A stretch of DNA of 64,000 bases. It comes from Stratiolaelaps scimitus (taxonomy: Eukaryota > Arthropoda > Arachnida > Mesostigmata > Laelapidae). The notes under the pieces are model-generated. The model made no database searches. It was given only the letters and a program-made list of their open reading frames with translations, and was not told the origin of the DNA. The stretch spans positions 24,851,501 to 24,915,500 of the forward strand of contig JABWDB010000002.1 in assembly GCA_019614645.1 (NCBI GenBank). Reading direction: 5' to 3'. The position numbers and the translations under genes are program-made. This document shows positions 22,529 through 53,617 of this stretch, in pieces. The stretch's first letter is position 1; each line of letters begins with the position of its first letter.

Positions 22529-25500
22529 ATGTCCTCGGCCACTTGTGAGGAAGCCGTGTCTGGCGCATCTTTGGTTCAGCCATCGGTTGTATATGAGATC
22601 GAACAGGGACCGGGATCAAAGCCGAAGAATGGCAGACAACCCTTGCCATGGTGGTGTGACCTTTTTGGCCCGTATGAACTAGCCGAAATGGGAAAGACCA
22701 CCGATAATGATGGCAACGAACCTGAGGCCGACTCGGCTTCTACAGTCAACGCCGTCATTAGGGGAATTGGTGCATTTACGCTAGTGTCTGTTTTCGATCA
22801 TGGCGGTGGACGCTTCATGTCACAGTGTCTGTGGGGTGCCAGGGCTGCCTATATTAAGCAGCTGCCACAAGCCTGTCCAGTTCGAATGGAACACCATCGA
22901 GACGGAACGGTTATTACCAGGTTAGGGTTTTGCTAATACAACATGGAGATTGAAAAATTTCCATCATACTAGATTTTCATACATGTACGACTATGCTACA
23001 TGATCATACTATAGAGGTAACCTGTATTGCTTCTAATACTACAACCATTTTATCTACTGTTTTTTTTATCGTTATACGAGGTTTTACTAGGTTGAGTACC
23101 GTTGACTTTCTCTTGTTGAGTTTAGACAGGGTATTCATAATCATGGGCCAGAGCAAGAGACACCGAGTCCGTTATCTGGTCACATGCCGGCTCTGCCAGA
23201 AGTTGCACCCACATTCGACGAACTCTATGCCACTGTACAACCGTTCAAGCGGCAATGTAAACGAAACTTTAAGACCTACGTAACCGTACTGGATGCTGAC
23301 ACCCAACAGATCGTCCAGTGAGTATTGCGCGTACAATGCTCAACTTTTTCACAAATTATTTAATTATTATAAACGGACACGATCATCCACATACGCGAAT
23401 CTAGGCACGGAAAAATTCGTAACAAGAAAAATATTGAGATTTTCTTTGCAAACAATTAGATGCGCAATCATCGCTCAGTTACAACAAGGAAAAATAATCT
23501 TTTTGCAGAATGCCAATCACGGTCGACAATGTCCGAAAGGTGTTTGACTCTGCACAGCAAGCTAAGGTGGACGGAAAACTCCGTGAGTATAAATTACTCA
23601 TTTTCATTAACGAAGTTAAGGCGTTTATGGTTGTTATTGCTCATATCGGCAATTTGCTACCGGCGGATGCTTCGCTATATATTGGTATAATTACTGGCGT
23701 TGTTGTAATTATTCAATTTTAGGATGGTGCTGCCCGGTCGATGATTGTGGTTCACAAATGTTAGGTAAATGGAACCTGTTTCGTCATTTGCAACTCTACC
23801 ATCTGCCAGAAGGCCAGCGCATGTGAGTCTTGATTCCACAGTTTAACATACATTGTCAATTTTTTTCGATCACACCGAGTGCATTAAACGAGTTTGGACA
23901 TTATTACTTGCCTATTTATACGGTTCTTTATATAAACAGATGTATTTCCATCAAGGCATGTAAGTCACGAAAAATTCTTCTTTTTTTCCTCATCGCGCAG
24001 CGTGACTGAGCAGGTCAAATCGACATTGAAAATATCCGGTTTATCTATTGTGTGCCCCATCTGCAAAGAGAACTTCAAATGGCGTCGTAAATGTCTCCAG
24101 CACATTATAGACGAACATCAGGTGCCCCTCAAGGTTTCCGAGTGAGTTATCTTCATTCATTATTTCTATCTCCTATCTGTCTTTATATATTATATATAGT
24201 AGAAACTCAATCGAATTAACAAAACAACAGAGCGTATCCCGTTTATTCTGGAAACTCTCAGTTAGAGATATAGAGCATGGCTCAAAACGATGTTCAACGA
24301 TTTCGACTTTTTACCCAGTTATGCTGATTGCAATATTGTTATTGCTATTACCTACCCTTTATTTACAGGCATGAGTTTGCTTCGTCGGATGACTTCTGGG
24401 AGTGGAAAGCCCGTACAGAATCTGAGGAAATGTCCACCTTCTCTCGTCATAAACAATCGAAACTGCATGAAATTGAGGGGATTTACCAGTGTTTCCTGGG
24501 GCGACGCGCCGCCTTCGAGCGGAAGGTAATAATGTTTTTCATAACGACAAATTTTGTCAACTATATATCGACTAATTAATACAGCTTAATTGGATTTTAT
24601 AGTGCAGCCGGGCATCTCTACAACGTCCGGGTTGTGTCACCCAACACCGGGACGACTATGTACGGAGTGTTCGACGAAATGGAGTTATTCTCTTTCAAAG
24701 TTCGTTTATTCTGATTTGAGTTCATTGCCTTTGCACATATTGCCATACGTCTCTATTTAAATGCTTCTACTTTTTTGTTCTTCATCTTCCTTTGTGGTTT
24801 AGTGCGAAGGTGAGACAAAGCCCCGAAAGAAGGCTCGTCTATTGAATCATTTCTGTCCAGCGGTGATGGACGTCAAACTTGGGCAGAGCCATGGTGAAAG
24901 AGGTGGCGGCAGTACTGGCCGGATTCACGTTACTTTCTACAGGACACACATCGGCCACACGCCGTCTCCTCTCGATGTGAAGTATGTCCCAGCTTTCCGA
25001 TATCTTTTGTTGGTTTTCTAGTTCCGGGGAAGATTCTAAATGAAGTCTTCGGTTCAATACCTATAATGTTACTGTTTTTCGAGCTGACCCTCAGCTGTTC
25101 CCCTATCTGACAGGCCTCAGCACTATGGAAGAAGTCAACTTTCCCTATTCTGCCCTGTTGGGATAAACGTTTAACCCATAAGGTCGTTGAGTACAAAGAG
25201 AAATTTAGTAGAAAGACAATATTGCCTATTGAGATACACATCAAAATACTGCGCTACTTTAAATGTAATCTCATTTTTCAACCGCCTCGTCTAATAGTGC
25301 ATTTGTTGCATCGTTTTTTTTGGTTGTAAAAAACGAACGTATTGTTTTTGTCGAATGTTCACTTTTTATTGTAAAAGGATGACCAATGAAGATTCACAGT
25401 GGCTTCGGGAGCAAATGGAAGCCGGAAAGGATCCCCAAGAAATCATGGCTGAAGTTGCACGTAGCTTCGACGGGCGCGGTCCACTCAGAAGGCTGCACGT

Positions 25501-28068
25501 TCTCGATCTCGGGGATATCTCGCGGACGGCCTTTCGATATGGACTTCGCAAGTGGGTGTTTCTGCATCGTTTTCTCTCTTCTCACACTCCACTCTTGCGG
25601 AGTAAAATTACGAAGTCCATCTTTTCCCTCTATACCTCGTTTCTTGGCCACGTAGACTTAGATTATTTGTCGCCTGCTTCTATTCAATTAGTACAATGTA
25701 TTCTCGCCAGCGATAAGCGTCTCATCGCGTTATCTAGACATTATGTCAGTCACTAATGTTATGCAATAGTACTTAAAACGCATTGGTGCTCAGCTTCGGC
25801 TTGCGTCTTCTGTAGCATTCACAACAGCAGACACAAGCCGAAGCTAAGCACTCAATGAGTCCCAGAAGCAATCATCTTAGCAATCAGTTTTTTAGTTCGT
25901 TTGCTTTCGCGATGATAACGTCGTCTTTTTTATTTGTTGAACGCCACACCCGATGTACATTTGAACTCAGCCCCGAAATTCGACGGGCATATGAGTGGTG
26001 GCGAACGGTGGATTTCAGCCGTGACCTGAATTTGGCTCGTCGTCGGCTCGTCGAGGTGATTCGAGCTAAGCTTGATAGGGAGGAACATCCTGTTGTAAAG
26101 AAAACTGAAAAGCACCAGTGGGCCGAGTCGCGTATCAAACAGGTAGATATTTGTTTACAGAACAAATAACGAATGAGGGGGGGGTACATTCAAATCGAAT
26201 TGATTTCGTTCTGAATTCATCCTGCCCGTTTATCACGAGTGTGGGTGGCTAGTCGGTTGGTTGGCTAGAATATCGTTGTGAAATTACAGTTCCATAAATA
26301 AATCACGCTAATGAATGAATGAGCGCTAATGAATGAATCTGTTCCTGATGCTACGCCTCGGAAGGTGCAAAATGCAATCCTGTGTTCATTTCCTTTTCCG
26401 TTCTGCCGTAGGTGTTGGAGTTAAATGGAGTGTGTCATGTTCGAGAAGGAGATGAAGTTCAAGTTGTGTATTCACGCAAGGCCGATCATGCGACATGCGA
26501 GGACGTCTGTATCTCGTGCAACGTTTGCGTACATAGGTACAATCGTATCTTCGTTGAAACTATTAATGTTATCCGTTAGACACATACGTAAACGATACAA
26601 CCACAAGTAAAACAATAGAGAAATAATTGTTGGTTATTGACTTTGTTAAATTTGGCTGTTACATATCTCAAAAATTATAGGTACGGTTGCACCTGCGTAT
26701 CACACGTCATTGACGGTCAGATGTGCCAGCATATTCATGCTGTGGCGCTTCGTAAAGGTGCACCCGGAGCTGAGTTCATCTCTGAGCAGCAAACAGATCC
26801 CGAGGAAGCGTTCAATCCCGAACGAGAGATTCGCGCACTAGGTCGAATCAATTACAACCAGCGTGTGCAAGAGATACTCAAAACTTTGGTGCCTCGGATG
26901 ATCCAAGCATTACAGGTGAGTAATCAGTCGATTTTACACATTATCAGCTGTATAAGAGATTTAGTTGTTTGCAGGGATGACATGATCTATCATCAACTTT
27001 CAGGGAGATCACTTCGTAGATCTGGAAAGAGTTGCCCAGCTCATCGAGAACGCCGCTGAAGTGTTAGAAGCAAGCGGTCCCGTACCTAACATCCATGTTG
27101 AGGAGAATGTCCCTAAGCCCCTACCTCTAGATGAGTTTCGTGGCCTCGTGGAGAAAATTCGCTTTAGTGCCGACGACAATGACGGGATAGCCGAGATTGC
27201 TGACGAAGGTGACCTCGTAAATAAGGAGGTTCAAGTTGACCCTGCTGACATAGAGAAGATTTATGCTGATCTGAACGAAGAAGAAAGCTACTTCGAAAAG
27301 CTGATGTTATCTGTAAGTAAGAAAAAGGCTGGACGTCCCTTTAGTACTGCTCATAAAAGGCAGAAAACTTCCAACAAAAAAATTACAGCGCTTGAAACAA
27401 GGACCAAACCAGAGCTGAAAGCTCTCCCCAAGCCTATACCAAAGAGAGGACCGGGACGGCCCAAAACGGTCAGTATCGCCGTAGAGAAAATAAATACTCC
27501 TCCAGTAGCAACCCCAAATCGACGGAGCAATCGAATCTCTGAACGACGTGCTCTCTCTGCGAAAAAAGCTGTGCCACAAATTTCCAAGCGGAAGAAGGCG
27601 GTCGTATCAAGGGCCGCAAACAAAAATCCAAAAGACTCGGCTAAATTAAAACAAAGCAGTCGAACAGCTGTCACCCCGCCAGAAGACACAGTCGAAATCA
27701 AGGTGGAAACAGATACCCTCGAGCCAGTTCCAAGTATCGTCGTTCTACCCTATCAAGAAGGGATTCGGTCAACAAAGCCATCCCTAGGCAGGGGTCGTGG
27801 TAGTTCTGGCATAGACCAGACGCAAACTGTGCATGAGTTCGTTATCACGCCGGCGACAAAGCGGTCGCGGACCCATGAAAGTTCCGAGGAATCTGGTCGT
27901 CCGACAGAGCCTTCTCCCATGCAAACCGTTGTTATAGAGGTCTCTCCTGCTGACGCGCCCATCTCGACAACGTTCGAGACAGCTGGTACGTCGAAGCCGA
28001 GCGACCCTGAAAAGTCTCGTAACACGCCGGCGGTCAAGGGCTGGATTCACGATCATATATATCTGTGA
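22529..28068 (+). CDS. FLYWCH-like / C2H2 / SWIM zinc-finger protein with AT-hooks (12 exons)
   Basis: Coding exons: 22529-22920, 23126-23317, 23509-23582, 23723-23822, 24001-24141, 24369-24525, 24803-24981, 25378-25551, 25971-26142, 26412-26536, 26681-26915, 27004-28068. All phases close over 3006 bases (1001 residues plus stop). Residues 1-150 hold a Cys/His module ending MEHHRDGTVITRQGIHNHGP, like FLYWCH or mutator-type fingers. Two C2H2 fingers follow (CCPVDDCGSQ...H at about 221-245; CPICKENFKW...H at about 268-290). Next is a core with HEFASSDDFWEWK, a Cys then VTFYRTHIGHT, and a leucine/isoleucine-rich helical block. A SWIM finger follows (CVHRYGCTC...CQHIHAV, about 567-590). The tail has AT-hook-like KKAGRP and GPGRPK. 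It is probably a nuclear DNA-binding protein. The domain order resembles arthropod proteins thought to come from mutator-like transposases, but I see no DDE catalytic core. An ATTAAA at 28272 could be the poly(A) signal. Confidence 0.85.
24603..24699 (+). other. Exon-like segment that does not fit the SWIM gene frame
   Basis: This 97-base piece follows TTTATAG and is open in a well-codon-biased frame (AAGHLYNVRVVSPNTG...). It ends before GTTCGT. Its length is not a multiple of three, and including it would break the frame between exons 24369-24525 and 24803-24981, which join correctly without it. It could be a frame-breaking cassette exon or an intronic coincidence. Confidence 0.25.
25074..25121. 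repeat. Dispersed repeat, copy 1
   Basis: The stretch containing TTTTCGAGCTGACCCTCAGC, followed by TTCCC, CTATCTGACAGGCCTCAGC, recurs at about 59543-59590 with a few differences. The sequence is inside the intron between SWIM-gene exons 24803-24981 and 25378-25551. The element family is unknown to me. Confidence 0.75.
25781..25857 (+). ncRNA. Candidate intronic pre-miRNA-like hairpin
   Basis: The left arm GTGCTCAGCTTCGGCTTGCG and on to 25812 pairs with 25825-25851 (GACACAAGCCGAAGCTAAGC within it). There are three mismatches over 27 positions and a 12-base loop. A further CATTG/CAATG clamp follows after a one-base bulge. The size (77 bases), the imperfect long stem and the position in a host-gene intron (25552-25970) match microRNA precursors. 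No mature sequence is recognised. It could instead be a decayed inverted repeat. Confidence 0.4.
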
Positions 28069-29814
28069 ATTTGTACAAGAACTCCAAGATGTTCGGAAAT
28101 AACGGTTCTATATTTCTAGACATCTGATATTCGGAATCTGATTTAGATTTTTGTATTAATGATTAAATTAGGTGTCGAAGCTAAAATTCAAGCTAGTAGG
28201 CAGGTAATGCCGTAGTCTGTTTGAATCACATTCGTCTAAATAGATAAATTGCAATTTATTCATGGACATATATTAAACCGTTTAAGTAAAGATTATTCAA
28301 ATTCGGCTTCGTTATTCATTCGCTTCTATTTTAGAGTAGGGCAATGAGTAACGAGCTGATAATAATGTTGGCTGTGAGTCAGGCCGGAATAATTTACTTA
28401 CTTACAAAACAACATGATACTTGAATTGTGATTCTTCCAGCAACAATAGACACAAAGAATTGAAATGGAGAAAGAGAAGTAGGAAATTTGTATAAAGTAT
28501 AGAAATGGCGATCACAAAGCAAAAACAAAATGAAATGGATGACGACGGGACGTTGAATTTCGGCTGTTGTATATGAAGGCCTTGTTACAGTGATTTATCT
28601 TCTGAATAGTGGTTGCAGGATCGATTCTTGTGCTTCGCTTTTCTACTTCCGAATGCCCTATTAGGTTGGGATTATTTTCTTTAATTATATATAATGCTTT
28701 TTTTATTTATCACATTTTTTTTCTCGCCTATGTATACGCTGATAATGATTATGAATATATTATATGGTTGTATGCACACCTACATGAAACACTAAATGAT
28801 AATGTTTAGGATGCATAAAGGTAAAAGGCATTTCGAAAGAAAATTGTAAATCAAACCTACGCTCTATGAGCTACTTTCGAGTTTGCTTAACACGAACGCA
28901 ACTGTTTTGGGTCGAAACGATTATTAATCAAGGCCTATACGAAGAATGTGAATTAATAATGCCGTCCCTCAGTATATCTATGGAACCTATCGATGAATTA
29001 ATTGATTTTATTACTTCGAATGACGCAGCCAACCGCATGAACGGACGTGATCTCTAGAAGTAATTAAAAAATGTGACTGAAAGAAAATCGTGTACAACTA
29101 CACGATTTATGTGGACGAGAAAGAGCGTTAACTTGAATTACAGCTGGAAAACATTTCCATATATATTCATGTACTCCTAGAATTTCATCTTCCTACGTAA
29201 GCTTGGTAGATTAGGACAAGCGTATACTATCTCAATCGTGTGTTATTAAACTAATTTAAAAGATGCTCGGAAAATTCCAATCCATTTTATGTGGGCTAAA
29301 TTGAATGTGTTAAAAAAAGAAAATTCTCTGCATTTGTTTGATCAAAATTGAGTAAATAAATCGATGTCATTACAGTGGTGCCTTATAAAATTGTATTAGC
29401 TGAATTATGTGCGAGTCGAAATCTAGAATGTTTACCTAATGTTCAGAGACAAAGCGAAACACATATGTATCTGCTCATCAAAGTTCAATTGCAACAATTT
29501 ATTCTGCCGCATGGCTGGAGAACTTCTCGTTAATTTCTAACAACAACGACAGCAAAGCGAATCACTCCTCAGATCCCACCGCACTACATATCGACAGTGC
29601 AAGAGGTGCCGTTGAGGCTAAAATGTAAAAAGCAATAATAAACATGTGTAACATCTATACAAATGTACAGCGAACTATTAATGATACCTATCAAATGGGG
29701 CACAGTTGAACTCCAACCGTCATTCAGCTTACATACATACATATATATTACGAGTGACCAAACTCTTGCCCGGGTGACTATTTTCGCCAGTGAAGTTCTC
29801 TACCTTCGTAACCA
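28069..29814. other. Interval between two convergent genes
   Basis: The SWIM gene (plus) and the zinc-finger locus (minus) end here tail to tail. The region is A+T-rich and no exon is supported. It contains one copy of a dispersed repeat (28364-28395), an ATTAAA at 28272 for the plus-strand gene, and a minus-strand AATAAA (TTTATT at 29498-29503) that could end the longest zinc-finger transcript. ATTAGGTTGGG at 28660 resembles a mariner end, but nothing else supports one. Confidence 0.5.
28364..28395. repeat. Dispersed repeat, second family, copy 1
   Basis: AATGTTGGCTGTGAGTCAGG with a following GGAATAATTT recurs at 62721-62751 as AATGTTGGCTGTGAGTCAGC with CTGAAAAATTT. A shorter relative may be present near 54996. 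The flanks are A+T-rich. Possibly the end of an unrecognised transposon. Confidence 0.6.
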
Positions 29815-31909
29815 CTATTTTTTAGGTTTGCTAATCGCTTTGTTTGGCTGAGTTTTGCTTGGGGATTGTTTGGACTTTTTCTTCGAACAATCCGATATTG
29901 ACGCGCCTTTGATCGCCTTGCTTGAGGTCCGTGTTCGCGTCTTTACACCTGTCGATAATGCTTGGCTTTCGCCAACGGGCAAGGTGATCGTAGTTTTAGT
30001 ATCGGAGATACTGTTATTACTAACCTGTACTTCCTTGTTATTCTGATCAACTGTCATGATACCCGCTTGGTCAATCCTAAATCCCGATACCGTACTACTC
30101 TCGCAGCGAATTTTATGGTCCCGAAATAGATTAATCGATTTCGTGGCGAATCCACAATTGTAGCACGCGAACAGGGCTGAAACAGTGTTTCCCTTCACGT
30201 GTTTCTCCCACATATGCTCCACCAACTCCTTGATTGATGACCAATTGCGGGTACAGAACGCGCAACAGAAGCTTTTTAAATTGTAGAATTGCCGCTGTGG
30301 TTTCGACTGCGCTGTGCTGCTCGAATGATGCTTGCCATCGTCAGCTTTTAGACAGAAGCGCTCCTTGTGTAGTTCGAGGCTTTGCTGGTACCTCGTCGTA
30401 AAAGGGCAACGCCCACACTCCAGCGACGGGGTGATATGGCTATACACATGGCGTAGCAGCTCTGCCTGTGATGCAAACATTCTGCAGCAGTGCTCGCAAA
30501 CCGCAAGTTGGACTCCGTTATGCTTGTTGTAGATATGGGTAAGTACGTCCGGCAAGGCCAACTCCGCGTCACATTGAATGCAACGGATTGAGTCTAGCCG
30601 TTCATGGCGGAGCGGTGGTACACCATCGATGTGTGCGGGATTTCGAAGCGGGTGATGGGTGCAGAAATGATCGACAATTGACAGTGAGACGATGTTCTGA
30701 TCGCAGAAGGGGCACGGTTCGACCGCCTGATATGCCACTGGATCAGGAGGTGTGGGCGAGCATATGCGGAACTCCTCAGGTATTTTCTCAGAGGATGATC
30801 CGTCGCCACTTCGACTGTGGCCACTGCATCGGCTGGCGTTGCTTGTTCCGCTCCGCTTCGTCCCGCTAATGCCGAATGCATAGTCGTGCAACCGAAGGTA
30901 GTCCGACCTCTGTTTGCTGTCCAGCATCGGCGTGCGATCGGCACTGCCGGAGCAGTCGTCAACGTGACGCAATCGCTCCTCTTCGGAGTCAAGATGGATG
31001 AGACAACGCTCACAACGAAGTTTGCTAGATACGCCCGCTCTACCACATTTAGTTCCACCTTCCCCGTTTTTATTTCGATGTAGCAGCATGTGAACTTGAA
31101 AATGGTACATTGACGAGAACTCCTTACTGCAAGTTTCACATGTATAGTGCTTATCGTTGTCAATGCCATGAGAACGAATATGTTTACTCATGGCCGCCCA
31201 ATATCGTGAACGAAAATTGCACTGATGGCAGCTATAGTCCTTCTCCTTGTCTTTGCGGGTTATTGCCTGTTGTTCCTTGTTATTATTATTATTAATATGA
31301 TTATCGTCGTCGTCGTCGTTGTTCTCCACAGTAGAGGTGTCATGGCTCTTCAAATGTCGATTATAGTCGAACTGGTACTGAAATTTGCGGTTGCAACGGT
31401 CACAGGCAAAGCGGAATTCACCTGTGTGCTTCCGACGATGTTCTCGCAGGTACTTTGCTGATTTTGTTGTGAAGGTGCATTGTTCAAACTCGCACCGAAA
31501 CTGCCGGTCGGGATTATTGTGCCTCTCGATGTGCGACATCAGATTGGCTTTCCAGGTGAACCGTTTCGGGCAGAGATGACAGATAAATCTACCCTCCTGC
31601 CTGTGCTTCTGAGCATGACAGCGTAGGTTTGTTCGAGATGAGAAACCTTTCCCACAGTCGGAGCAGAGAAAAGGTCGCTCGTGCGTGTGTCTTGCCCGAA
31701 CGTGATCTTCGAGAAATTTGCTGCATGACGCGCCCGCATAATCACAGCCCTCGAATGGACACTGTAGACGAGCTGTCTCGTGGACTGCTCGAACGTGAGC
31801 GGCCAGTCGGGATGCCGCCGCGAATGCCTTCCCACAACGGTCGCAAACGTGATCTCCCAAGCCGTGCACACGTTCCTCGTGTACTGCTCGCAGGCCCTGC
31901 TGGCTGAAT
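29815..31909 (-). CDS. Alternative 3' exon C of the zinc-finger locus (16-finger array)
   Basis: The exon opens after GTTTCAG at 31910 and reads a-FSQQGLRAVHEERVH, the second half of the shared finger. About 15 further C2H2 or C2HC fingers follow. A compact proximal block runs from CDRCGKAFAAASRLAAH to CETCSKEFSSMYHF, including CX4C forms CPFEGCDYAG and CEFEQCTFTT. It is broken by an Asp/Asn-rich low-complexity linker. A distal block follows from CPFCDQNIVSLS to CYNCGFATKS, with a basic Ser/Lys/Thr tail ending KAISKPKK and stop. It is the most diverged of the three variants and lacks the terminal single finger shared by the other two. There is no ATG at the 5' end of the open frame, which supports its use as a spliced exon. 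Confidence 0.8.
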
Positions 31910-32251
31910 CTGAAACGATAGCCAGATAATCACAATAGGCACGCTGTACTTCAAGACAGACGTTGAGATAGACACACAGAATAGAGAGATTACAGCGGAG
32001 ACCCGCAGCGCTGCAGCGTGTCAGTAAGCGCTACTCCTATAGCTGAATGTTATCATTATTCGAAACTGTTAGCAATTAACTCTTGCTTAATTCGTCATAT
32101 CTTGATCCATCTCCAATTCGGAAAAAAAACAATTTATGACCTTGGGGCCTTCTTTTATATTTGTGGCCACTTTTGACTGACAAATCTGTTCAATACAGAC
32201 ATTGAGCACCAATGTTTACCTATCGCTTGTCTGTTTTAGCATGTGAAAACG

Positions 32252-32282
<31 letters not shown>

Positions 32283-35200
32283 CGACGTACGTTCCATTAT
32301 ATGTCCGAATGAGTATTAGTTATTATACAAAAATAGGCGAGCTCAAGATATGCCATTATAAAACTAAACCAATAGGGCGCAGAGCTAAACTCTGACACCT
32401 ATTCAAAGTAGATTCTTGATACGCGAGTGACCTAAATGGAAGAAATCGATTTAATTTTGACGAGAATTGCCATTGAATATAGGGGATCAATATCTTGCCA
32501 TTATCTTAGCGAAACTACAAATTACGTTAGGCCATTTGCTGAGAGCTTCGACAGTTCGAGTGACACATTGAAAAGGGCACAATATTCATGGTACAAAAGA
32601 CATATTTATTCGCATCTCTATTACAAAGCATCGTTTGTATATGTTTTTGTGCAAAGAAGTTTATATATATATATATATTTATAATTGATACAATTTGTCC
32701 AGATTGATTAAAATACTATCAACATCACTGATTCGTTGAGCGGCTGTCTAACTGCAATTCAAGTGAAAGTTTTCATTCGTTCCTGCAGAAAACTTCACAG
32801 TATCTCATCATCAGGTAAAGCTTTTGACACCATCAAACTCCTTTTACCAAAGCGTATATACATTCTAACAAGTTACAATAACTTGGAAAGATCTCTCCCA
32901 TAGAAAGTTACCAAGTGTTCATTCGTATGTTCATGGTGTTTTCACTTAGGTAAGTCAATGCGTGTTGTAACAACTACTACCAGACATTATCTAAGTTATA
33001 GTGTCACTGTGTAGCTTTTATAAAATCTACCTTGCAAAATGTCATGTTGTTGCCTTAGTCGCCTACGCCATTCAAAAATATCTTACACCAGTATTATGTG
33101 TATATATATATATATATATATACAACGTAACTTGACAATTAATTTCATTTCATGGTATATATTGAGTATCATTTGTGAAATCACACAAGCTCCGTTACGC
33201 GATTGTAACCCGTTTCCACTTTCGAGATTGAACACATCGAATGATCAAAGAGTCACACAGGCTGGACTCTGCTTTCGATAAGTGACTGACGAAGCCTGTG
33301 AAGCTACAGTCCATCGGCTTTTCGTCATCGAAGGGGACTCCGAAACAGATACAGCTACACACGCACACATTCACACAAACCGGAGGAAAAGACACATACC
33401 TTTTTTTCCCCCACATGTGAGAACTTTTTGCTCATTCTGTACGTGTTCCACACTTTGCCATTAAGTAGTATTGTTTGTTTGAGGCAAACGTGTAATTAAC
33501 TATGCAAAATCACTCAACGCGTTGCACTTGTAAACAAGGATCGTGTATTTCATTATTGTATTGGACAAGCTCGCTTTCGTTCCCGTTGCGACATCTCGCT
33601 ACGAGATCTAGTCTACATAGCGCTCCTTCCTCTGTAGATGAACCCTTGTGTAATCTACAATGTGCACCAGTTAACTGGGTCGAGTTAATTATAACAATCA
33701 ACGTGTTTATTACCGTACATCGTGTCAATAATTAGTAACACAATAGCGGCTAATGAAGTGTCCGCCAAAGGGAAAAAAATTTGTCAATAAGCTGGCTAAC
33801 GTGATTGATAGAGTACAAGAAAAAAAGACACAAATGATCAACGTTTGATAAACATTGAAACGTCACTTCCACGTGATGCGCTATATACAACCTCGCATAA
33901 AAAGTATCCGCGCGAAAGAGTCTTCATTTTACTTCATGATTGAGCGTCTTTTCAAGTTGGCGAAAGCAACGAAATATGTTCACAGACGATGCGCAGCTGA
34001 CAAATCGGCCAAACGTCTTCACTCAAACCTAGAACGCTCCACAAGACTTCCTTCGATTTAGGTCGTTGTTATCTTGACTTTTTTCATTATTTATTAAATA
34101 CTAAGGTCTCAGTGCTGACTTGACTTTCACTAACACGACGATATTCGACGCAGCTTTAATCGACTACACATGTCATTTGTGTTATGCTTCTATGCAATAT
34201 ACTGGCCTTAACCCCTTATAATGTAGGCAGACAAGAGACATAATGAATAGTATTCAGTTGTTAAACAAAAACAATGGCATGTGATGCACAACTTAGGACA
34301 AAACTAAAAGAAAATAATAATTATTATTATAATAATAATCATAATAAACAATACTTAACAAAATAATACCTTATTACGTTTGTTATGTATACATTGATAG
34401 TTTCGCTCCCACAAGCTGATCAAAAAGAAATCAAGCATGAAGCGAAACCATAAACAAAAATCAACAACCTTATCAAAACTTGTTCCATCTCATAGTTTAG
34501 ATAGCTACAGTTCGCTCTATTCCTATTTATGTGCTCTCTTCCACTCCTTTGAGCCGACTCGTATTTTCACTTTGTTGACATGAGCCTCGACGATGTGCGA
34601 CGCGAATTTCGTCTGGTCCACGAAGAACGTATCGCACTGTGGACAGGCAAACATCTCGACTTCATCGTCAACCTCATCCGCCACAGCATGGTCGACCTCA
34701 TCACTGTTGGTTTCAATGATTACCTCGCCTTCGCCGTTCACCGTGGCTGCAATGTGACTACTTCGAATAGAGCTACAAGCTTCGTTGTCGGTGTGTTTCA
34801 ATTTACAGGGTGGCACTAATTTCATGTCGACGTACCGGTGTAATGACTCCCCTATTGTGGGTCTATTATCATCCTGTCCAACACCGTCGTCGTTGTCGGT
34901 GTTCGTCGGCGTCCCCTCAACTTGCTTAGTGTCGTCCTGGCTACCTGGTAGTTTGACGTTGACGGGTGCAGCCTCAGTGCACACCGCGTCAATTGATTCC
35001 GAAGGCGAATGGCCCTCAATGAGGAAATTGACTCGTGGATCGTGTAGCCGCTCACCCTTCGTAATCCTTCGTATTGTCTGTTTTTTCCGTTTCATTGACA
35101 CTTTGGACCCTTGTGCCTGATCTCTTACCCGTGGCGCGTAATCGGAGTCGGAGTCGCTAGCGTAGTTGGTTTTCTTCGTTTTTGTCGGTTTAGCACGAGT

Positions 35201-38200
35201 GCTTCTCCTTTTAGGCTGCACACCTTCGTCCGTTTGATTCCGCACCGTGCGAACCAGTGCCCCTTGGATCAGTAGCTTTTTCAGCACTTTTGAATGACGT
35301 TGCGGCATTTTCGGCGATTCGACTATCTTACTTCCCTGCAACTCGTTCAGTTCGATTTGCCCTTTCTCCTTTGCAGAAGGTTGAGGCTTGCCTTCTACCA
35401 TCGTCTGGCCATTTGCAAGTTTTGGCTCCGTTCTCGCTTTCTTTGTTGCATGCTTGACAATTGATTTTGACGCAGTTAAATCTCTCTTATCGCCCTCCTC
35501 CTCATCATCGCTACTTGCCCAGTGCATCCTTGGTTCTTTTACGACGACGACACCCTTTGTGCCGCGCTTCTTAGCTGGCAAAGCAATTCTCACGCGCATC
35601 GGCTTTATAGCAGCTGCTTCTTCGGCACTCCCACTTTCGTCCTCCCATGGCATGTCCTGCTCTTCAATTTTCACTTTGACTTTCCGCAAGCGCCCACCAC
35701 TCTTTAGACACTGCTTCCTTTCTCCGTCTGCGGGCCCGCCGACCTCACCGGTCTCTGTTCCTCCATCGTCGGCCTCCGGCTCGCAACCGGCCTTGTGCGC
35801 CTTCAGCAAGAACGGAATATGTGTTGTGAAGTCGCAGCGCGGACACTTCAGAGGCGTCTCGTGGAAGTTACAGTTGCTCTTCCGATGCCGAAGGTAGGTT
35901 CTCTCTACGGCCGTACTAAAGCCACAGTTCTCGCATAGATGTGTATGCTCATGGGTATGGCGTACCGCGACGTGCTCACGCAGCCTTCCCGGCGTGTAGA
36001 ACATCTGCTCACAGAAGCTGCACTTATGCCGTAGACGGTCCTTCGAGTGCACGCGATGCTCGTGAGCCCTCTGGTTGTTTCTATCGCTGAAAGCACGGTC
36101 GCAGTGCTGACACTTGTAAGGTTTCTCTTTGGTATGGACGGCTCGCACGTGCGCGGCGAGACAGTAGCCCTCGAAATCACACATCGTGCATTTTCTTTTC
36201 CCGCTGGACGCAGCCAGATCCATTCCAAGATGCTTTAGCCGGACATGCTTGTTCAGTTGCTGCTGGTATTTGCTCTTGTAGTCACATCCGTCGTAGCTGC
36301 ACGCGAATCGGAAATCCTGATGAGCCAGCATCGTATGCTGCTTCAGTCGGAAGGGCGTACTGAATAGCTTGCCACACTGATCGCACGTACATTTGCCAAT
36401 GTTGTGCTTACCCGCGAGGTGCTCGTTCAGGTGACCGCTCAACTTGAACCTACAACACAATGACAACAACGACAATAGCAACAATAACAACAACCACATC
36501 GGGAGGTGGGAAGATGATCCAGTAATACACTCAGACAGACATAGACCGACATACACGCACACATAGATGAAAGTGACAGATCTGAGACAAACAAATGTGC
36601 TAAGAAATCCACGATTGGCGAAACAGTCACAAATCGAACGGTAACTGCGAAAAACCTTAAGAGCCCTCAACCCGAAACAAGTGGGGGCAGCTGTACCTCA
36701 CATGTACCTCAGCTGTACACACACATCACAAAATGAGTGGTACAACCAAGTTCGTTTGTGAGTTGTGCTTATAGACGATATCAATTTCCCCATACACTCT
36801 CTCTCTCTCTCTCTCTATCCCGATAGCGGTCGGGGCTGAAAAGAACTGAAGTGTTTGGTACGATGTCATACAAGTATATGAAATAATGTTCATCTAGTAG
36901 TGTTACTGTGGGTATGTACAGAGCAATTAAAGAGGCGATGATAGTGGTATCTATGTCTAAAGTATATATACATTTTCATGGTATATGTAATTTATTATTG
37001 TTGTCCTTTTTTACATAATAACGCATAGCAAAAACAGGTCATTTGCTTCGCTCTTATTGAAGAAGGTCACCTAATTATCGCGATCGCCTACCAATCAAAT
37101 GAGTCTTACGAAAACAATGTTAACCTCGTAATCCTCTACGAAAATCGGATTGTATCCAAACATAGGAGGTGTTCACAGCTCAAAAATTACTTAAGCTATC
37201 CTTGGCCACCTTCGATAATTTGGACATCTTTTACACTGCGTGCAATTTTTTGTTTTCCTTATAACAGCCTCTTAGACTGCCAGAACGGCGCAGGAATACA
37301 CTGTGACGTTGACTCCTCCGACGCTGCCTCCGCAACTACAATGCTGACATAGTGTCATAAAAGTGTGCGCTGTTAAGAGCGTCCTAAGTAACCCGATCTG
37401 TTTCCAGCTTGCCCATTTGCCGGCAATCTAATGTGCGCATACTAAAATTTAACCAGATACATATTGGTACTTACTGCAGAAGTATTTTCGTCTTTGACGC
37501 CACTCAGAAGATCATTGGCAAAAACTAAATGCAGTGAAAAACAATGACTCATTGGAGCCATTAAATAAGCAGTACTATTAACTCCAGTGAGGAGTGCAAT
37601 AGCTGTGAATCTCAGTTGCATTGTCTAACGTTATTTTCGGAACTTCTCTTCACAGCGTTTTCTCAACCCTCCTAATTCAGCGGTTCATTTGAGCTTGGTA
37701 TCTAGCTCTATTCGACGCAACAATGAAAACAGAACAAATATAATATAAATCATTTTTGCCAACTCGGCACTTTATTTCTTCTATTCAGGTAACTGTTCGA
37801 AATGTACAGGGATGCCCAAGTCAAAAAATATTTTAAGTAACTTGTGCTCTCCATAGTTCACGATTAGCACTTTAGCGTTGAAATCGTCTCGCGTCTCTTC
37901 TCATTTACTCTTACATAGAATAAAATGATAATCATACTAATGATAATGATGATAATAATAATAATAATACAATTATGAGTATCTTATCGTCTTCATAAGC
38001 ACAAATCAACAACTACTCCAGTCATATGCGTGTCACAAGGGCCAGATAGAAGAAAATGACTACCTCTCGTGTGAGGGAATGACGAATTACTCATGCACAT
38101 TTCGAATCGAGAAATTCTTCGCTATTTCCTTTTACCAACATACAACCTAACTTTGTTGTTACGATTTAAATATCGCTCTGTAGATAACTGATATTTGCAA

Positions 38201-38445
38201 AGCAAACCAAGAAGGATTTATTATGAATAACACAATTCATAATAGTTCTACAATAGGAAGAGTGATGACTTCTCGTGGTTTCTGTACATTCAGAAATAAC
38301 AACATTCGATTGGATTCGCTCATTTGTTACATCATCCATTCGTTCACTCACACAAGCATACAATCAACCACGACCCACGTCATTTAGATCTTCAGAGTAT
38401 ATGTACACTTGATAGTCGTCACACCAACACGACGAATCTGCCCTC

Positions 38446-38491
<46 letters not shown>

Positions 38492-41400
38492 GCTTATATC
38501 ATGCTTAAGTACTTCAACATAAACGCTGTTCGACGCAGGTCGCAATGGGTGCTCTCGACAAACGCCTACTTATTCCCCAAGTATTGTTTCCTCGTTAGTA
38601 AACACTTGTCATATGATCAACCGTCCTCGAGCGGTCTTCTCTGTTTATTCTGCGGGGTGTATCTGTGTTTTTGCAAAACGTTCTCTCACTTGTACAATCT
38701 CCTCTCCGACCAGACGATATTCGGAGGATGGCATGCTTCGATAGGCAATCGAACTAGTTGGTGGTAGGTACGGCAGGGCGTGTCGGTCAATCCCTGCGTC
38801 AGATTTTCTTTATAGCTTCAGTCTATCATTGTCATAGGCAGCGTCCGCGTAATTCTAATCCTGACACCCATTACTAATCTGTTAAATGGGCCTTGTCTCA
38901 AGTTTTATCCAAGAGCAATCAAGTCCACCTTTCGCGTAATGTTATATTTGTGTAAAAATCCCAATCAGAAGTTGTATGCCAATCCGAATTAACTCTGGCT
39001 TATGGTCCTACTTCATCAACATCTGGTCACGAAATCCTTCCATTAGGCAGATAGAAATTTACGATATATTAAATCAACTACACGATTGTGGGTGACCAAC
39101 AAACAGTGACAAATATGGTCGCTCCATTAATCAAAAAAAAAAAGGACAGATACGCAAATGAAATAGATGAAGGTATCCATTTACCTATTAATCAGTCAGC
39201 AGTGATAACCATCTCGAACTGGTGCTCGGTTTTCATATGTTCCCGCAATTTGTCTACATCAATGAAGAACGTGTTACACTCAAAGCAGTTCATCATGGTG
39301 ATTTCTTCTTCCGCGTCCACTTCGTCGCCAAACGATATCTGTACAACCGCGTCATCGTCATCATTGACAATCTTTTCATAGGTCTTGCTTTGAGTCTTAG
39401 GGGGAGGCTGGGATTCGATCATGTCGCCGGCCTCGGGAGCACCCTCATCGTCCTGATCGCCGCCACCGCCACCGCCGCCATAGACGGATGCTTTCTCTGA
39501 TATCGTACTACTGCTACCGCTTGCCGTTGCTGTCGTGCTTTCCACGGTAAGCACCGCTGCGTCAGCTCCTTCTGTCTCCGCTCCTGTGGTCGAGGCAAAC
39601 GCAGTCTTCAGTTCAGCTTGCGACGCCTGTTTTTTCGCTGATGGTTTTCGGCCAGCCGACGAACTCGCCCGTGCAGGTGGTAGGCGCGCTTCGAACATTA
39701 ACTCATCTTGAGGTTCATGCCCTCGCTCGAGACTGGCCAATGTCGCTTTCCTTTTGGGTGGCCGTCCTCGCGGCCGTTTCGGTGGAGGGGCGGGTACTGC
39801 GAACGTTGGTACAGATTGCTCGGCAGTGATATTTGATAGAACGGCGGCAGCATCGTGGGTCGTAATCAACGCTTCTCCGCTAACGCCCTCATCAAGAAGC
39901 TGTTGTCTCACCGGTAGAGGTTCCTTCTTGACGCCGTCGGCAACGCGCGAATGCCTTGAAGGCAACTTGCGATTCCCATCAGCCGGCTTGAGTTTCTTTT
40001 TGTACGACGTCCTCGGCTGATGTCTTGAGGGATTATCGTCAAAGAATGAGGAACTATTGGACGCCGCTCCCCGCCAACTCGCATTGGTTCTCTTTCGTCT
40101 GCTACTGCGCCGTTTCGTAGATCCCTCATCGCTATCGTTTGCTTCCAGCTCGCGAAGAAATCTCGCCTCCTCAAAATCGTCGTCATCCAGATCATCCGAC
40201 ATTTCCGGTTCGTCCAGATCGCTCAATTCTTCTTCTTCTTCTTCCGAGCTGCTCTTTCTGCGCTTCCTTGAAACCCGCTTCTTAAGTGTCTTTCGCTTGG
40301 CACCCCTGACCGTTAGCTTAGCTGTCTGTGTTGGCTTCAGCGTGACTTTAAGAGAGGGCACCGTGGGCGGTGCCGAAGCCGCCTGATTAGATGCTTGAGA
40401 CTTGCGCTGTGACGGCTGGCCGTTCTGAGATTTCGGGGGCCTACCTCGTTTCCGAGGTGGATTCGCCGGTGGCGGCACAGCAAGCGCAGCTGCTTTACTC
40501 GGCCCACCAGCAGGGCTCCCTTCGATGGCTATTGTAGCCGGTTCCTCGATTGCAGGCGCGGCCGCTTTTAACGTGGGACCAGCCTGTGGCGCTACCTCGT
40601 CCAAGAGCTCTTGTTTGACGAAGGCTGTGGGCGCCTCCTCAGTTTCGTCTCCGATCTCTCCATCTGAGCCGCTCTGGGCAGGCTTGACGGACCATGGCAT
40701 ATAAAAGACTTTCGATGATTTCTTTCTGCCACCTTTAGCCTGTGCCCCTGACGACTGATGTTCCGCGTTTTCGCCAGTGGCAGCGGCGGCGTTCGTCTCC
40801 TCCTCTTCAAGACCCTCGTCGCCCTCTCCGTCATCATCGCTATCGCTCTGCCACGCTTTGCGTTGCTTTTTTCGTTTCACTATGTGCTTCGGGTGGCATT
40901 CCTCCTTGTGCGTACGCATTGTGAACGGGATTTTGGTCTCGAAAGCGCAGAATTTGCACCTCATCGCGGCTTCCTTCTCATAGCAATTAGCGGCCGTGTG
41001 GTCGCTCATTGTGCGCCGCGAGGCGCAAGAGAATCCGCATTTGACGCAGAGATGTGGCTTCTCATTGGTGTGCTTACCAATATAATGATCCTCGAGCTGG
41101 CGTCGCCGAAGAAATCGATCGCCGCACACATGGCACACAAACGGATACTGGTCAACAGGCAGATGGACCTTCTTGTGTTGGCGTAGGTTACTGCCAAAAT
41201 GGAACTTCTTGCCGCATGTGGGACATTCAAAGCGCGGCTCAAGTCCGTGCATCGCACTCTCGTGGCCGCGAATGTCGTAACCGACATACTCGCAGAAGCG
41301 GCACTTCTTCCGGAATTTATTGTCGACGTATTTGCCACCCTCGTGATTGTAGCTCACATGCCCCTTGAGCAGGTATTTGCTGGTTGTGCTGAACTCGCAA

Positions 41401-44400
41401 CCATCCCAGGTGCACCGAAAGCGAAAGTCCTCGTGCACGACCTTCATATGCTCCTCGAGGGCGCCCTTGTACGGGAACAGCTTGTCGCACAAGTCGCATT
41501 TGTGTTTCCCAACATTGTGCTTGATGCTATGGACGCGCAAACCACTGCGCGATTTGTACCTAGAACACAGACAGACGAAGGCACCATATGAATACTCAGC
41601 GGGTTGCAAGGAATAAGGACCACCTTTGACAAAAGCAGCCAGCGGGTAAGAGGGACCCTCCTACAATTTTAGCCAAATTGCTAACGGTGGCCTGGCACAG
41701 AACATTAGCTCTATTATGTTTGCAAATTGAAAGGTCCTTTGGACTGGAACATTTCTAAACACTTCGACCATTTCGAAATATGTTCTTAAATCTGATAGAA
41801 ACAATTCTAAAATGAAACGTCTATACGTTCGGTACGCCGCAAGGGAACCGAAGGCTATTCCCGACTACATCATAATGAAATTATTCCTCTCTGTCGAAGT
41901 ACCGTGGCGATCAATGACTCTATTTTGGTGCCCTCTCTCTCTCTCTCTCTGATACGATATCAGCATTGCGATAGATTCGCCTCTGATTCGAGTAGGTAGT
42001 GGTCCTTGTTCCTTGCCCCAACGTGCCATTCACACCGTCTGACGTGCACTACACAACTATGTACTTGCATACAGCAGTAAATATTAATTACATTTAACAT
42101 TTATGCTAGAACAAATACTTGTTCACTAAACCCGATAGGTTCGGTTCCAAGTAACGCAAGCTGAACTATCACTGGGTTCGATGGCTGACCGAACTAGATC
42201 GATTTGAACGAATTGCATGCAAATGCCGTAAATCTCAAGATTTTGGTGTGTTGGCCAATGAAGTGATGAAGTCCTTAGTTAAGCTGAGTTGACAAACTGG
42301 CCCTTGACTTATATTTTAGTATAAGTAATCAGCCGGTACTTTGACATTTTGCTGTCCTCCTACGATTTAGGGGAGCGAAATTGCTACAGAATAATGAATC
42401 CCCATAACCTCCCATATTTATAAGGCATGTTTTCCACAAACATGCATTGAAATCCGCCCTTATTTTGTGAACTAACGTGAGCCCTATGAAACTAAGACAC
42501 ACAAAGTAATGTAAACAGATACACCCTCCGAGACTTGATACTTCAACCGAATGATTAAAGGTATGAGCCACAATGTCCTCTAGTTCGAGTAGAGGAATAA
42601 GGGACATTCTTAATGAGCCTACAACATATTGATTGTCATCGTAACGAGCCCAACAAACGGATACACAACAAAACCGTCTAATTTTGATCTCACGCGAAAA
42701 AAGCTGACGAAGTTAAACCTCGAAATAGCACGTCGATTTGAAAAGTTTCGTTGTGCCCCGGCGGTGTGTATTTAACATGTTTCATTAAGAATATCTGAAA
42801 TATAGCCCGACAAGGTTTGCAGCAGAACAATGCTAATAATTTTGTGGATTACTCTATATTTCATAAAAGCCTGTTTAAAAAATGGGGATTTCATGGCTTT
42901 AATCAGGTGGGGGAGGGATCCCCCTTTCTGCCCCAACTTGTTGCGGTCAACAACACATATTGAGCCAAAATCAGCGATCGTGACCTTTGGTATGATGCAT
43001 TCTAACCGGCCAGTTCGTAGCTCAATTGCGAGGCACATACATTAAACACAGATTGATCTGGTAGTTACACGCATTGCAGAAATATAAGAGTTGACGACAG
43101 ACAGCAGTACTCACTTGGCGTCGCAGTATGGGCAGGGGTAGTTCCTCTCCTGCGAATGAACCGTGGCCAGGTGCCTCTTCAACATCCGTTTCGTTTTGGC
43201 CACATGACCGCACTCCTCGCAGCGGAATGGGGGTCCACCTTCGACCGCAACGAGCTCTTCCGTCTCCAGAACTCCCAACGTACTGACGTTCATTATGCCA
43301 CTGCCTCCGAGGCCGGCCGAACCAACTCCGCCAGTTAGCGTCTGAACCGTTACCCCACCGCCGACGGAGGCGAGACCTAACGCGTTCAATTGACGCGAAT
43401 GTACACAATGCATGGTTACTAAATTTAGATCACGAACAGGCTGACCTTGATCTACGTTGAACAAATGTTGCTAGAAAAAATGACAATATTTTTGTAATTT
43501 TGCTAGAACTTACTAAATCATTGAGTGAAAATGGCGAGTTCTGGTAGAGTGCTATGACCCACACATACCTCCAATTTGCAAGGTCCCGCCCATGCTAACG
43601 GCAGTCGCCGCTGCAGCGTTGCCTGCCTGTGTCGAGCCGGCTGGATGATGCAGCACCATGTGAACGAGTTGGTGGCCCCCTCCGGGCGTTTGGGCTACCA
43701 CTTGCTGAAGCACTTGTGTTCCACTTCCGGCTGCTTGTCCTCCGAGCTGGCTGGGAGTTCCGCCGATCATAGTTGCAGCTGTACCAGCTTGAGTTACGTG
43801 CAGCTGGGCAACAGATGGTGTTACGATATGATGGCCTGATAAATGTAATGTATGATGTTGCTGTTGGACATTCTGGCCGGGGACTGAGGTCATCCGGCCA
43901 GCCACGTTAACAACAATCGCCTCGCTTGGCAACGCCCCACTGGCGGTGACAACTGCACTCGAACCTCCGGGTGCTGACAGGTGAATTGTAGTAGGAACGC
44001 CGCTACCTCCTAAAGAATTAAACATTTCCCGAGAGACCAAAAATTGTCTCTGTTTTACAAACAACTCTTGATGTTCAAAAGTGATGTTTATATACATTAC
44101 AGCGAGCTACCGAGCTATAGTATTGGCCTCGTCTTAGTATATGTTAAGAATACGATCCTTAATCGGGTATAACTGATGAGTTCATGTAAAGCAATCGGCA
44201 TTATATTTGCCACTATGTTTACAAATCATTAATTCAAATAGCAGATGTATGATACAACGCTTATCTTTCTCACGTCTTCATGCGCTTACGCCCTTGTACA
44301 AGGTAACAACAGCTGCAACCGATTAGCCAATTCTCCCATAAGGCGGATCAAAAGTGTGAGTCATACAACCAAACATTAATACGAGTAAGATGTTATGCGA

Positions 44401-44728
44401 ACATGGCGAAGCATGAGTCTATCCGTCTGGGCTTCTTAAGCAAAGGTCTGTCGTTGTCATTCGTACCTGCCGTCGCGGTTCCAGAAGACGGGCCTGCAGC
44501 TTGTCCGGCTGCATTGGCGCCTCCAGTTGCCGCGCCGGTGGCACTCGTCTCCCCCGGCTCATGCTGCTGGATTATCGGCGTCCGTAAATCCGGATAGTCG
44601 CCCGGCGGTAGCCGAACAAGATTCGATGTCGATGGAGCTTGCGGACCCGGGGGTAAGTCTACCGAAGGGTAGGCCGGTGTTGTTGGTGTTGGGTACCACC
44701 CCAGCAACAGCGAGTCGTGTCCCTCCAT
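29815..44728 (-). CDS. C2H2 zinc-finger locus with one shared 5' part and three alternative 3' exons
   Basis: Shared coding exons are 44467-44728 (start), 43569-44009 and about 43115-43451. The last ends GAC GCC AA before a strong donor GTGAGT, inside the finger CPYCDAK. Three acceptors lie downstream: 41559 (TTCTAG, first base G), 36449 (TTGTAG, first base G) and 31909 (TTTCAG, first base A). Each base completes AAG or AAA (Lys), followed by Phe or Tyr and the helix half of the finger. Totals are 3408, 2967 and 3135 bases, all divisible by three, giving 1135, 988 and 1044 residues. Function is inferred: nuclear transcription factors with isoform-specific DNA binding. The plan recalls lola or mod(mdg4), but no BTB/POZ domain is present. 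The alternative view, three separate genes whose own 5' exons I missed, is unlikely, because none of the three long exons has its own ATG exon nearby and all share the split-finger phase. Confidence 0.8.
31910..34522 (-). other. Sequence between alternative exons B and C
   Basis: No exon with a finger-half start or any other coding signal is seen. It is A+T-rich, with (TA)n tracts near 32259-32282 and 33100-33122. The exon C acceptor and its branch region lie at the left end, and any 3' end of exon B transcripts lies at the right; TATTTATTA at about 34085-34095 gives a minus-strand AATAAA. Confidence 0.45.
34523..36449 (-). CDS. Alternative 3' exon B of the zinc-finger locus
   Basis: It starts after TGTTGTAG at 36450 with g-FKLSGHLNEHLAGKHN, completing the shared CPYCDAK finger. 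Next come CDQCGKLFSTPFRLKQH, the CX4C finger CSYDGCDYKSKYQQQ, the short CTMCDFEGYCLAAHVRAVH, CQHCDRAFSDRNNQ, CSFCEQMFYTPGRL, a C2HC type CENCGFSTAVER...C and CPRCDFTTHIPF...C. About 400 mostly charged, disordered residues (acidic EDDD-like and Lys/Arg blocks) follow. One isolated finger, CPQCDTFFVDQTKFASHIVE, stands near the end before EWKRAHK and stop. The finger order and the distal finger match exon A. Upstream in-frame sequence beyond the acceptor is leucine- and cysteine-rich noise, as expected for intron. Confidence 0.82.
36450..39191 (-). other. Sequence between alternative exons A and B
   Basis: I find no coding exon. A (CT)10 run (sense strand GA) lies at 36797-36816, about 350 bases upstream of the exon B acceptor, and a (TA)n tract at 38450-38486. 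The open plus-strand frame at 38324-38767 runs through the (TA)n tract and is not convincing. Confidence 0.5.
36797..36816. repeat. (CT)10 run upstream of exon B
   Basis: A pure CT tract on the plus strand, GA on the sense strand of the locus, lies 348 bases upstream of the exon B acceptor. A comparable run stands at the same distance from exon A. Confidence 0.9.
39192..41559 (-). CDS. Alternative 3' exon A of the zinc-finger locus (nearest to shared exons)
   Basis: It starts after GTGTTCTAG at 41560 with g-YKSRSGLRVHSIKHN. It then gives CDLCDKLFPYKGALEEH, the CX4C finger CTWDGCEFSTTSKYLL, the short CRFCEYVGYDIRGHESAMH, CPTCGKKFHFGSNL, CHVCGDRFLRRRQL, C2HC-type CVKCGFSCASRRTM and CKFCAFETKIPFTM. 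A long disordered region follows, with two clear AT-hooks (RKRGRPPK and KRPRGRPPKRK), Ser/Glu-rich and Gly-rich stretches. One isolated finger, CFECNTFFIDVDKLREHMK, precedes the stop. It is the only variant here with strong AT-hooks, so its DNA preference should differ even though its finger block parallels exon B. Confidence 0.83.
41560..43114 (-). other. Intron between the shared finger exon and exon A
   Basis: The strong shared donor GTGAGT is at 43114 and the exon A acceptor at 41560. Read without splicing, the next codon after CPYCDAK is TGA, so intron retention would stop the protein at once. No further alternative exon starting with a finger half was found in this intron. Confidence 0.6.
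41933..41950. repeat. (CT)9 run upstream of exon A
   Basis: A CT tract (GA on the sense strand) lies 374 bases upstream of the exon A acceptor, mirroring the tract before exon B. A third run at 46537-46554 lies in the 5' region of the locus. Confidence 0.9.
43115..43451 (-). CDS. Zinc-finger locus, shared exon 3 with the split finger
   Basis: It encodes a Gly/Val/Leu-rich stretch (LGLASVGGGVTVQTLTGG), an acidic piece (ETEELVAVEGG), a full C2H2 finger (CEECGHVAKTKRMLKRH) and the first half of the next (CPYCDA plus AA). The downstream donor is GTGAGT at 43114. The upstream boundary is uncertain. AG at 43452 (CAACGTAG), a slightly later one before GTCAGCC, or one before TAACCATG all keep the frame with the previous exon; TTTTTTCTAG, the best-looking acceptor nearby, does not. 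I chose the first in-frame AG. Confidence 0.75.
43569..44009 (-). CDS. Zinc-finger locus, shared exon 2
   Basis: 441 bases, phase 1 on both sides. It encodes a low-complexity activation-like segment rich in Gly, Ala, Val, His, Gln and Thr (SAVVTASGALPSEAIVVNVA, QQQHHTLHLSGHH, GGHQLVHMVLHHPAGS). It carries no zinc finger and no BTB fold. Acceptor AATTCTTTAG, donor GTATGT. Such glutamine- and histidine-rich segments often act in transcriptional regulation, but that is inference. Confidence 0.75.
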
Positions 44729-51838: not shown

Positions 51839-53617
51839 CTTTGGAAACTAAACGACACGATTACACATGGTTACGATGACGTTGTCAACTGGCTGGTATC
51901 TATGGTCGAATATATATATATAATATGCTTTATGTTTGGTATAACACAAACAGGAAGGACGTATCAATGAACCCTTTCTCCAATATATGGTACCTTAGTA
52001 TTATGGGACGTACCAGGTTTTTATTATTAATTACTCCATCTGAAGGGAGCATGTAATTTCTGCAAACATTATAACTTAATGCAGCCTTCGAGGAGCAACG
52101 AATTATCCCATAGAAATAATTCTGTGTACAAAATTATAAGCCACAACGAGTACAATTTAAGTTAAACGTTTGGTGCACTATGGAACAATAAGTATATAAC
52201 CTTACATCCATAAACTAAAATCTTTCTTAGAAAACCTACTGCCTAAAACGCGCCGATCCTACAACCTGCACATTCCTGTTCCTCTTCTAAACATAACCCG
52301 TATGTCAAATTATTAAAAATAACTTCATCTAATAAGCATACGTGTTAGTATTAGCTTATACTGATAGAAATGGAAACAATAATATATTAAATAACGTCGA
52401 AAGGGGGCTTTCTTTTATACTGATCCAGAATTCAGAAGGGCGATGGAACTTTCTTCCTTGAAAATCAGCCCGCTACAAAATCGACTTGTTTAAATCTTCA
52501 CGGCGATCTTCTTACCTTGTACTTTGTTTTTGTCTAGCGCATTGATGTTGATAACAGGACGACATACAACTAACCCATGGATTTCAAATGAAATGTCGTT
52601 CGTTCCGTTTTTCGCCACAAATCAGCGACGTGTCACATAGTCACAACAAGTAACAACCTGAATTTCATTCACGCAAGCAGTTGTGTGCGAGTCATTCAAG
52701 CACAATTTTGTCAATTAATATGGACCTTTATATTGTGATAGTCATAATAATAATAATGATAATAGTTGCTTTATTACTGTGTGTCAATAGAATTCATCAC
52801 ATCGTAGCACAGGGCAATTGTCAGCTACATTTGACAACAACAATAACAATAATCGGATGCTCAGAGATGGCATCAGCTGTTTGGCAGGTCTTCCCTCTCT
52901 CCGTAACGGCACAATGAATGCATAGCTCTGTGCTGCTCAAAGTATCTTTGCGGACGGGCGATTCCACCCTGGCATCACATAGCTTCCACTTGTCCATTCT
53001 TTGAGGCTATGCAAGTTATCATAAAAAAAAAGCATCGAAGCACAACGGGCAAAATAGATTTGAGATACAAATATGCCTGCTCCGAACGCCGTTGTAATAT
53101 ACACATAAGTAGCAATGAAGCCTCAAAAGCAGCCGATACATTGCCAATAAACGAAACGGAGCAGTCTCAACAAAGTGAAAACATTTTCGTTTTGGAAACA
53201 CGATATTTCCAATTTTTAGTGAACTTCGAAGAAATGTTATCCAATCATCTCCTCATACCAATATTTGTCTTGATCATTGTATTTAGGCTATTCAATTCAC
53301 GTGACACTTTTCAGCAAGCGGAACCAAATAACAGAGATACGAGCTTAATACGAGGCTGCTATTCGGGAATCTTCGCGAAAATGTGCTCAATTTTTTTCAT
53401 TTCATTAGTGGTTTATTTTCAAAAGTTATCGTCGACTATTACGTACAGGGGGGATTTAATGCAGCACAATCAAAATCTCTCCTAGGCTTTAACTTTCAGG
53501 CTAGACACATATTGCCTAAATCAACTTTTGAATTAGCCATATGTTTGCTAAGGTTGTTACCAGATTTCATGTTAACTGATTTCTACAAATTTTCCCAAAC
53601 CTTATTTGCGCACTTAC

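Follow-up and report, generated by a model that had tools for sequence, protein, structure and literature searches.

The joining of a common 5′ part to alternative 3′ exons has been described for several Drosophila genes. In lola, a common BTB region and N-terminal exons are joined to unique C-terminal exons, most of which contain fingers (PMC1947980), and in mod(mdg4), in Drosophila and other insects, shared 5′ exons are combined with many alternative 3′ exons (PMC4667647), FLYWCH exons and trans-splicing being described for the same gene (PMC4667647, PMC11426971). The alternative 3′ exons of Drosophila fruitless encode different zinc-finger domains, and its domains A, B and C are associated with different DNA motifs (PMC3852243). 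The alternative last exons of mouse Zic3 (Zic3-A and Zic3-B) join inside C2H2 finger five and alter its last two residues, and the authors suggest that exon 4 did not arise by duplication of exon 3 (PMC3157443). Here we describe a locus on the minus strand, at 29815..44728, of a 64,000-nucleotide stretch of DNA (hereafter the window) from the mite Stratiolaelaps scimitus (assembly GCA_019614645.1, contig JABWDB010000002.1, positions 24,851,501 to 24,915,500). Judged from its sequence, the locus, in a mesostigmatan mite related to Tropilaelaps, is probably a single BTB-free, lola-like gene for a C2H2 zinc-finger transcription factor, in which a single donor at 43115 would be joined to one of three alternative 3′-terminal exons, named A, B and C below; we are more confident of A and B than of C.

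The likeness of the mite gene to lola would lie in a common 5′ part followed by putative alternative finger-bearing 3′ exons (PMC1947980), and its likeness to mod(mdg4) in shared 5′ exons with such alternative 3′ exons (PMC4667647). In contrast to lola, which has a BTB domain and at least 20 isoforms, the mite gene has three long multi-finger exons and no BTB match; mod(mdg4) has BTB and FLYWCH domains, neither of which was matched in the mite gene, and some of its variable regions lie on the opposite strand, whereas fruitless encodes a BTB protein and has five finger exons for its P1 transcripts. The original prediction had proposed a Gly/Gln/His-rich shared region in the place of BTB, and the domain searches agree with it: with Pfam at E 0.1, the 322 residues of the shared part, the joining Lys included, matched five families, all of the C2H2 type and none of them BTB, and at E 0.001 the three exon frames matched C2H2-type models only and no FLYWCH. 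Because neither BTB nor FLYWCH was matched, the mite gene, although it would work like lola, mod(mdg4) and fruitless, is not a member of the BTB class; tandem C2H2 fingers, including the hybrid one described below, place it among C2H2 genes.

Since trans-splicing is documented at mod(mdg4) and lola (PMC4667647, PMC11426971), which have the same common-5′/variable-3′ layout, the mite isoforms could likewise arise by trans-splicing of separately transcribed 3′ units. This seems quite improbable to us: the exons all occupy the same strand and fit into 15 kb, cis-splicing suffices, the sequence demands nothing more and, as a further difference from lola, it bears no sign of trans-splicing. Splicing within a finger has a precedent in mouse Zic3 (PMC3157443). 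The mite gene differs from Zic3 in that its exons look duplicated and in that the exchange would affect the greater part of the helix together with the entire array behind it. In the mite gene the predicted junction lies inside a finger. Zic3 is BTB-free, and so is the vertebrate C2H2 gene ZFP64 (ZNF338), whose isoforms have different finger arrays. For ZFP64, one paper gives isoform numbers and names (PMC12178792). Among the literature matches listed, which came from open-licence papers and few search terms, no gene was seen that lacks BTB and also has a junction in mid-finger and duplicated terminal exons with several fingers each.

The anatomy of the shared part can be followed by comparison with a relative, P0008 ('hypothetical protein BIW11_04454'), a 1546-residue NCBI gene model of the mesostigmatan mite Tropilaelaps mercedesae. 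The gene starts at 44728 (ATGGAGGGACAC), with an in-frame stop three codons 5′ of the ATG. Shared exon 1 (44467..44728) opens with this ATG (MEGHDSLLLGWYPTP...) and ends at a GTACGA donor; positions 44728-44462 match residues 1-89 of P0008 at 85%, and P0008 starts with the same residues, MEGHDSLLLGWYPTPTTPAYPSVDLPPGPQAPSTSNLVRLPP. Shared exon 2 (43569..44009), the Gly/Gln/His-rich one, is an open frame between a TTTAG acceptor and a GTATGT donor, with 62% identity to P0008 over 148 aligned columns. Shared exon 3 (43115..43376) encodes a whole C2H2 finger, CEECGHVAKTKRMLKRHLATVH, followed by the Cys-Cys half of another, and ends, as had been predicted, with CPYCDA plus AA before the GTGAGT donor at 43115. 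The original prediction, with totals of 3408, 2967 and 3135 bases, implies that exon 3 starts at 43451. This start was dropped: the totals were reproduced and are divisible by three, but P0008 reads ...GGTLQIG-GLTSVG..., in agreement with a start at 43376, to which we moved the exon, and a tblastn search with P0008 gave a match at 43377-43114 with 81% identity. The corrected totals are 3333 (A), 2892 (B) and 3060 (C) bases, all in frame.

The three terminal exons follow on the same strand. Exon A (39192..41559) opens with G and then YKSRSGLRVHSIKH after an acceptor ending in TTCTAG, exon B (34523..36449) with G and then FKLSGHLNEHLAGKH after TTGTAG, and exon C (29815..31909) with A and then FSQQGLRAVHEERVH after TTTCAG, which bears out the predicted acceptors at 41559, 36449 and 31909 and the predicted openings, a single G, G or A followed by the helix half of a finger. 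The joined codon is AAG or AAA, hence, as predicted, Lys in A, B and C alike, and every joined frame has a single stop, at its end. Together with the shared part, and counted with a loose pattern, A has nine fingers (the hybrid one included), of which one stands alone near the C-terminus, B has nine in a layout resembling that of A, and C has 17 (the hybrid one included). AATAAA, a polyadenylation-like signal that is common by chance, occurs within 1.5 kb downstream of each of the three exons. The introns between the terminal exons contain runs of AT dinucleotides (32240-33130 and 38436-38504).

The proposal that the splice point falls inside a finger, so that each isoform would have its own chimeric finger, is supported: the Pfam model PF00096 aligns all three hybrids end to end (positions 1-23 of 23). 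Their scores are 25.5 (A), 24.4 (B) and 20.8 (C) bits against a cut-off of 25.2, which, taken alone, only the hybrid finger of A passes; three ordinary fingers of the locus, scored for comparison, reach 25.8, 26.5 and 22.1 bits. In A and B the half finger is canonical, and that of C keeps the right C-x12-H-x4-H spacing. The missing first half is not found locally: the open frames upstream of the three acceptors, followed back to the preceding stop, contain no C-x2-C, and the motifs that do occur there (one C-x-C for A; one C-x3-C and one C-x-C for B) are not positioned to complete a finger. By a rough, after-the-fact estimate that uses the minus-strand AG frequency of 0.0586, an AG at the required position in all three exons would occur by chance with a probability of about 2e-4. 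At helix positions -1, 2, 3 and 6 by the usual numbering, counted by hand, A has S, S, G and V, B has L, G, H and E, and C has Q, G, L and V.

The donor at 43115 also stands out within the window, in which a loose pattern recognizes 25 half-finger donors (13 on the plus and 12 on the minus strand). Only two of the minus-strand ones, 43115 and 36708, lie within the locus, and 43115 is the only one of the 25 that combines a preceding finger, GTGAGT and at least 60 open codons. A strict scan of both strands for AG followed by a half finger gave four matches, namely A, B and two plus-strand sites, and no further split-finger exon; the two plus-strand sites were set aside, being open for just 43 and 33 codons. 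The predicted fold of the donor region is ordinary (z 1.69; 197 of 200 shuffles fold at least as well).

The heads of the three exons are related to one another. Their first 80 residues were compared with 323 same-register windows from 33 other zinc-finger proteins, a background drawn from our own finger searches, and the scores of 164 (A-B), 130 (A-C) and 136 (B-C) all exceed the highest background values, which are 95 for A, 125 for B and 119 for C. The heads have a common layout, in which a half finger is followed by a six-residue linker, a C-x2-C finger and then a C-x4-C finger. A and B are 36% identical over 227 residues and have solitary last fingers that resemble each other, and A and C are 29% identical over 190 alignment columns, including 39 gap columns. 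Because the heads match one another above all 323 windows, the most likely origin of the exon set is the tandem duplication of one terminal exon with a half finger at its start. At the DNA level, the longest 25 of the 69 inverted pairs among the repeats of the locus include AT/CT simple-sequence runs and short matches, with no long exon copies.

The protein searches extended these comparisons to relatives. Those with the fingers of A (three hits among 29 candidates) and with the shared finger and the beginning of B together (two hits among 23 candidates) yielded P0008 and a second relative's protein, P0005, listed under the source 'lgn'; the other hits, P0006, P0007 and P0009 (bird ZBTB24), were set aside as generic, at 28-36% identity. 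The shared finger is also present in P0008, as is the CPYCDAKYKSRSGL join to A (CPYCDA-K-YKSRSGL). With gaps excluded, the fingers of A are identical to it at 218 of 225 positions (97%) and the tail of A at 233 of 423 (55%), while for B the figures are 181 of 198 (91%) and 170 of 366 (46%). Against P0005, the fingers of A are identical at 186 of 187 positions and the tail at 366 of 515. We read this pattern as purifying selection on the fingers of A and B. The original prediction had suggested looking for the same split-finger phase in related genomes; in the T. mercedesae model, A is conserved together with its join and B except for its half finger, the junction to B is skipped, and no close relative of C was found by the protein search. 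A search of solved structures with exon A returned 30 sequences, zinc-finger proteins of other kinds.

Several points weigh against a single gene with three exchangeable ends. An in-frame ATG lies in the open frame of B, upstream of its acceptor; the finger proteins behind the background of the exon-head test were not sampled at random; and no exon B was seen in the relative from which P0005 came, for which just one of the searches could have shown it. The search with C gave no ortholog, its 31 hits among 2204 candidates being finger proteins at 21-35% identity, and the hybrid finger of C is less canonical, its leucine lying one position early, such that the strict scan missed it. In addition, P0008, the sole annotated relative found, runs from A on into B, in the same order as in the window, fusing both in one protein.

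If this model were taken at face value, A and B would be exons of one long fused protein. We consider this extremely improbable. P0008 exits A inside the coding sequence, before the last finger and the stop, and thereby loses a C-terminal finger that is present in both P0005 and the window; it enters B past the half finger, so that the first half finger of B is lost and the junction of 43115 to B is not represented in the model. P0005 continues through A to the C-terminal EMVITAD, as in the window, and therefore A looks terminal and B unreadable after A in one frame. The A-B fusion looks like an annotation artefact, produced through a false intron, of what would be an alternative-3′-exon locus.

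The absence of the 43115-to-B join from the Tropilaelaps model and the missing ortholog of C would also fit a locus in which A alone belongs to the shared exons, and B and C are separate neighbouring zinc-finger genes, derived by tandem duplication, with unrecognised 5′ exons; the open frame of B reaches 82 codons upstream of its acceptor, with the ATG inside. This explanation is unlikely in our view, as B and C each open with a half finger that has no matching first half upstream and that is in the register of the 43115 donor (for C by spacing only). The sole other half-finger donor on the minus strand of the locus, 36708, would by hand count yield C-x13-H, which is the wrong spacing, and the frame of B directly before its acceptor reads MWLLLLLLLSLLSLCC, like a T-rich splice tract. 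Furthermore, the non-finger shared part occurs once in the window, its best match elsewhere being at E 2.0; for the shared finger, the matches to other fingers there are only weak, the best at E 0.003.

A reading in which A and B are genuine alternatives and C is a dead or unrelated finger exon unused by the gene draws on the same missing ortholog and on the displaced core leucine of the hybrid finger. It is unlikely, given that C is a 704-codon stop-to-stop frame with many intact fingers, that its acceptor has the correct phase and an AG, and that its head is related to those of A and B above the whole background.

Under the preferred explanation, one gene with three alternative ends, a single pre-mRNA would be spliced from the donor at 43115 to one of three competing 3′-terminal exons, each with its own stop. 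The resulting mRNAs would have in common an N-terminal region free of BTB, a whole finger and the Cys-Cys hairpin half of another; the shared half would give the zinc-binding cysteines, and the terminal exon both histidines and the DNA-contacting helix residues. The isoforms would differ in the hybrid finger and in the remaining array, and would presumably address other DNA targets under one N-terminal effector region. In vivo splicing of all three exons to 43115, the mechanism and regulation of the choice among them and the DNA targets are what we infer from this arrangement. Our opinion is evenly divided on whether a BTB-free lineage of regulators in mesostigmatan mites evolved a system of exchangeable tails of its own, convergent with the strategy of lola and fruitless, with the exchange inside a finger and with the half finger at the head of each terminal exon serving as a plug, by which any duplicated exon would come in frame and fold with the shared half. 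The independent origin proposed in the original prediction is presumptive; no BTB match was seen. If the gene is transcribed as drawn, the switching of DNA-binding tails under one regulatory head arose outside BTB genes, and the junction would give a new hybrid finger each time. To judge from the Tropilaelaps model, a locus of this kind may be merged by automated annotation into a single false protein, and similar loci may hide in other chelicerate genomes.

Elsewhere in the window, the plus strand at 23100-28100 contains possible pieces of another gene, with finger-like motifs (CCPVDDCGSQ... at 23728 and CPICKENFKW... at 24053) and a long open frame at 26986-28068 that has no Pfam match at E 0.001. 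A short open frame on the minus strand (57883-58137) has a finger-like motif (zf-met, E 0.0035, below the cut-off). Scans with Rfam, at the gathering threshold, and for tRNA genes gave no match. A P-loop GTPase-like piece lies on the minus strand at 51584-51847, where the Pfam matches are weak and all below the cut-off; presumably it resembles NKIRAS. Finally, the plus strand at 60335-60676 carries a transposase fragment (PF01359 Transposase_1, E 2.1e-10), which we take to be mariner-like.

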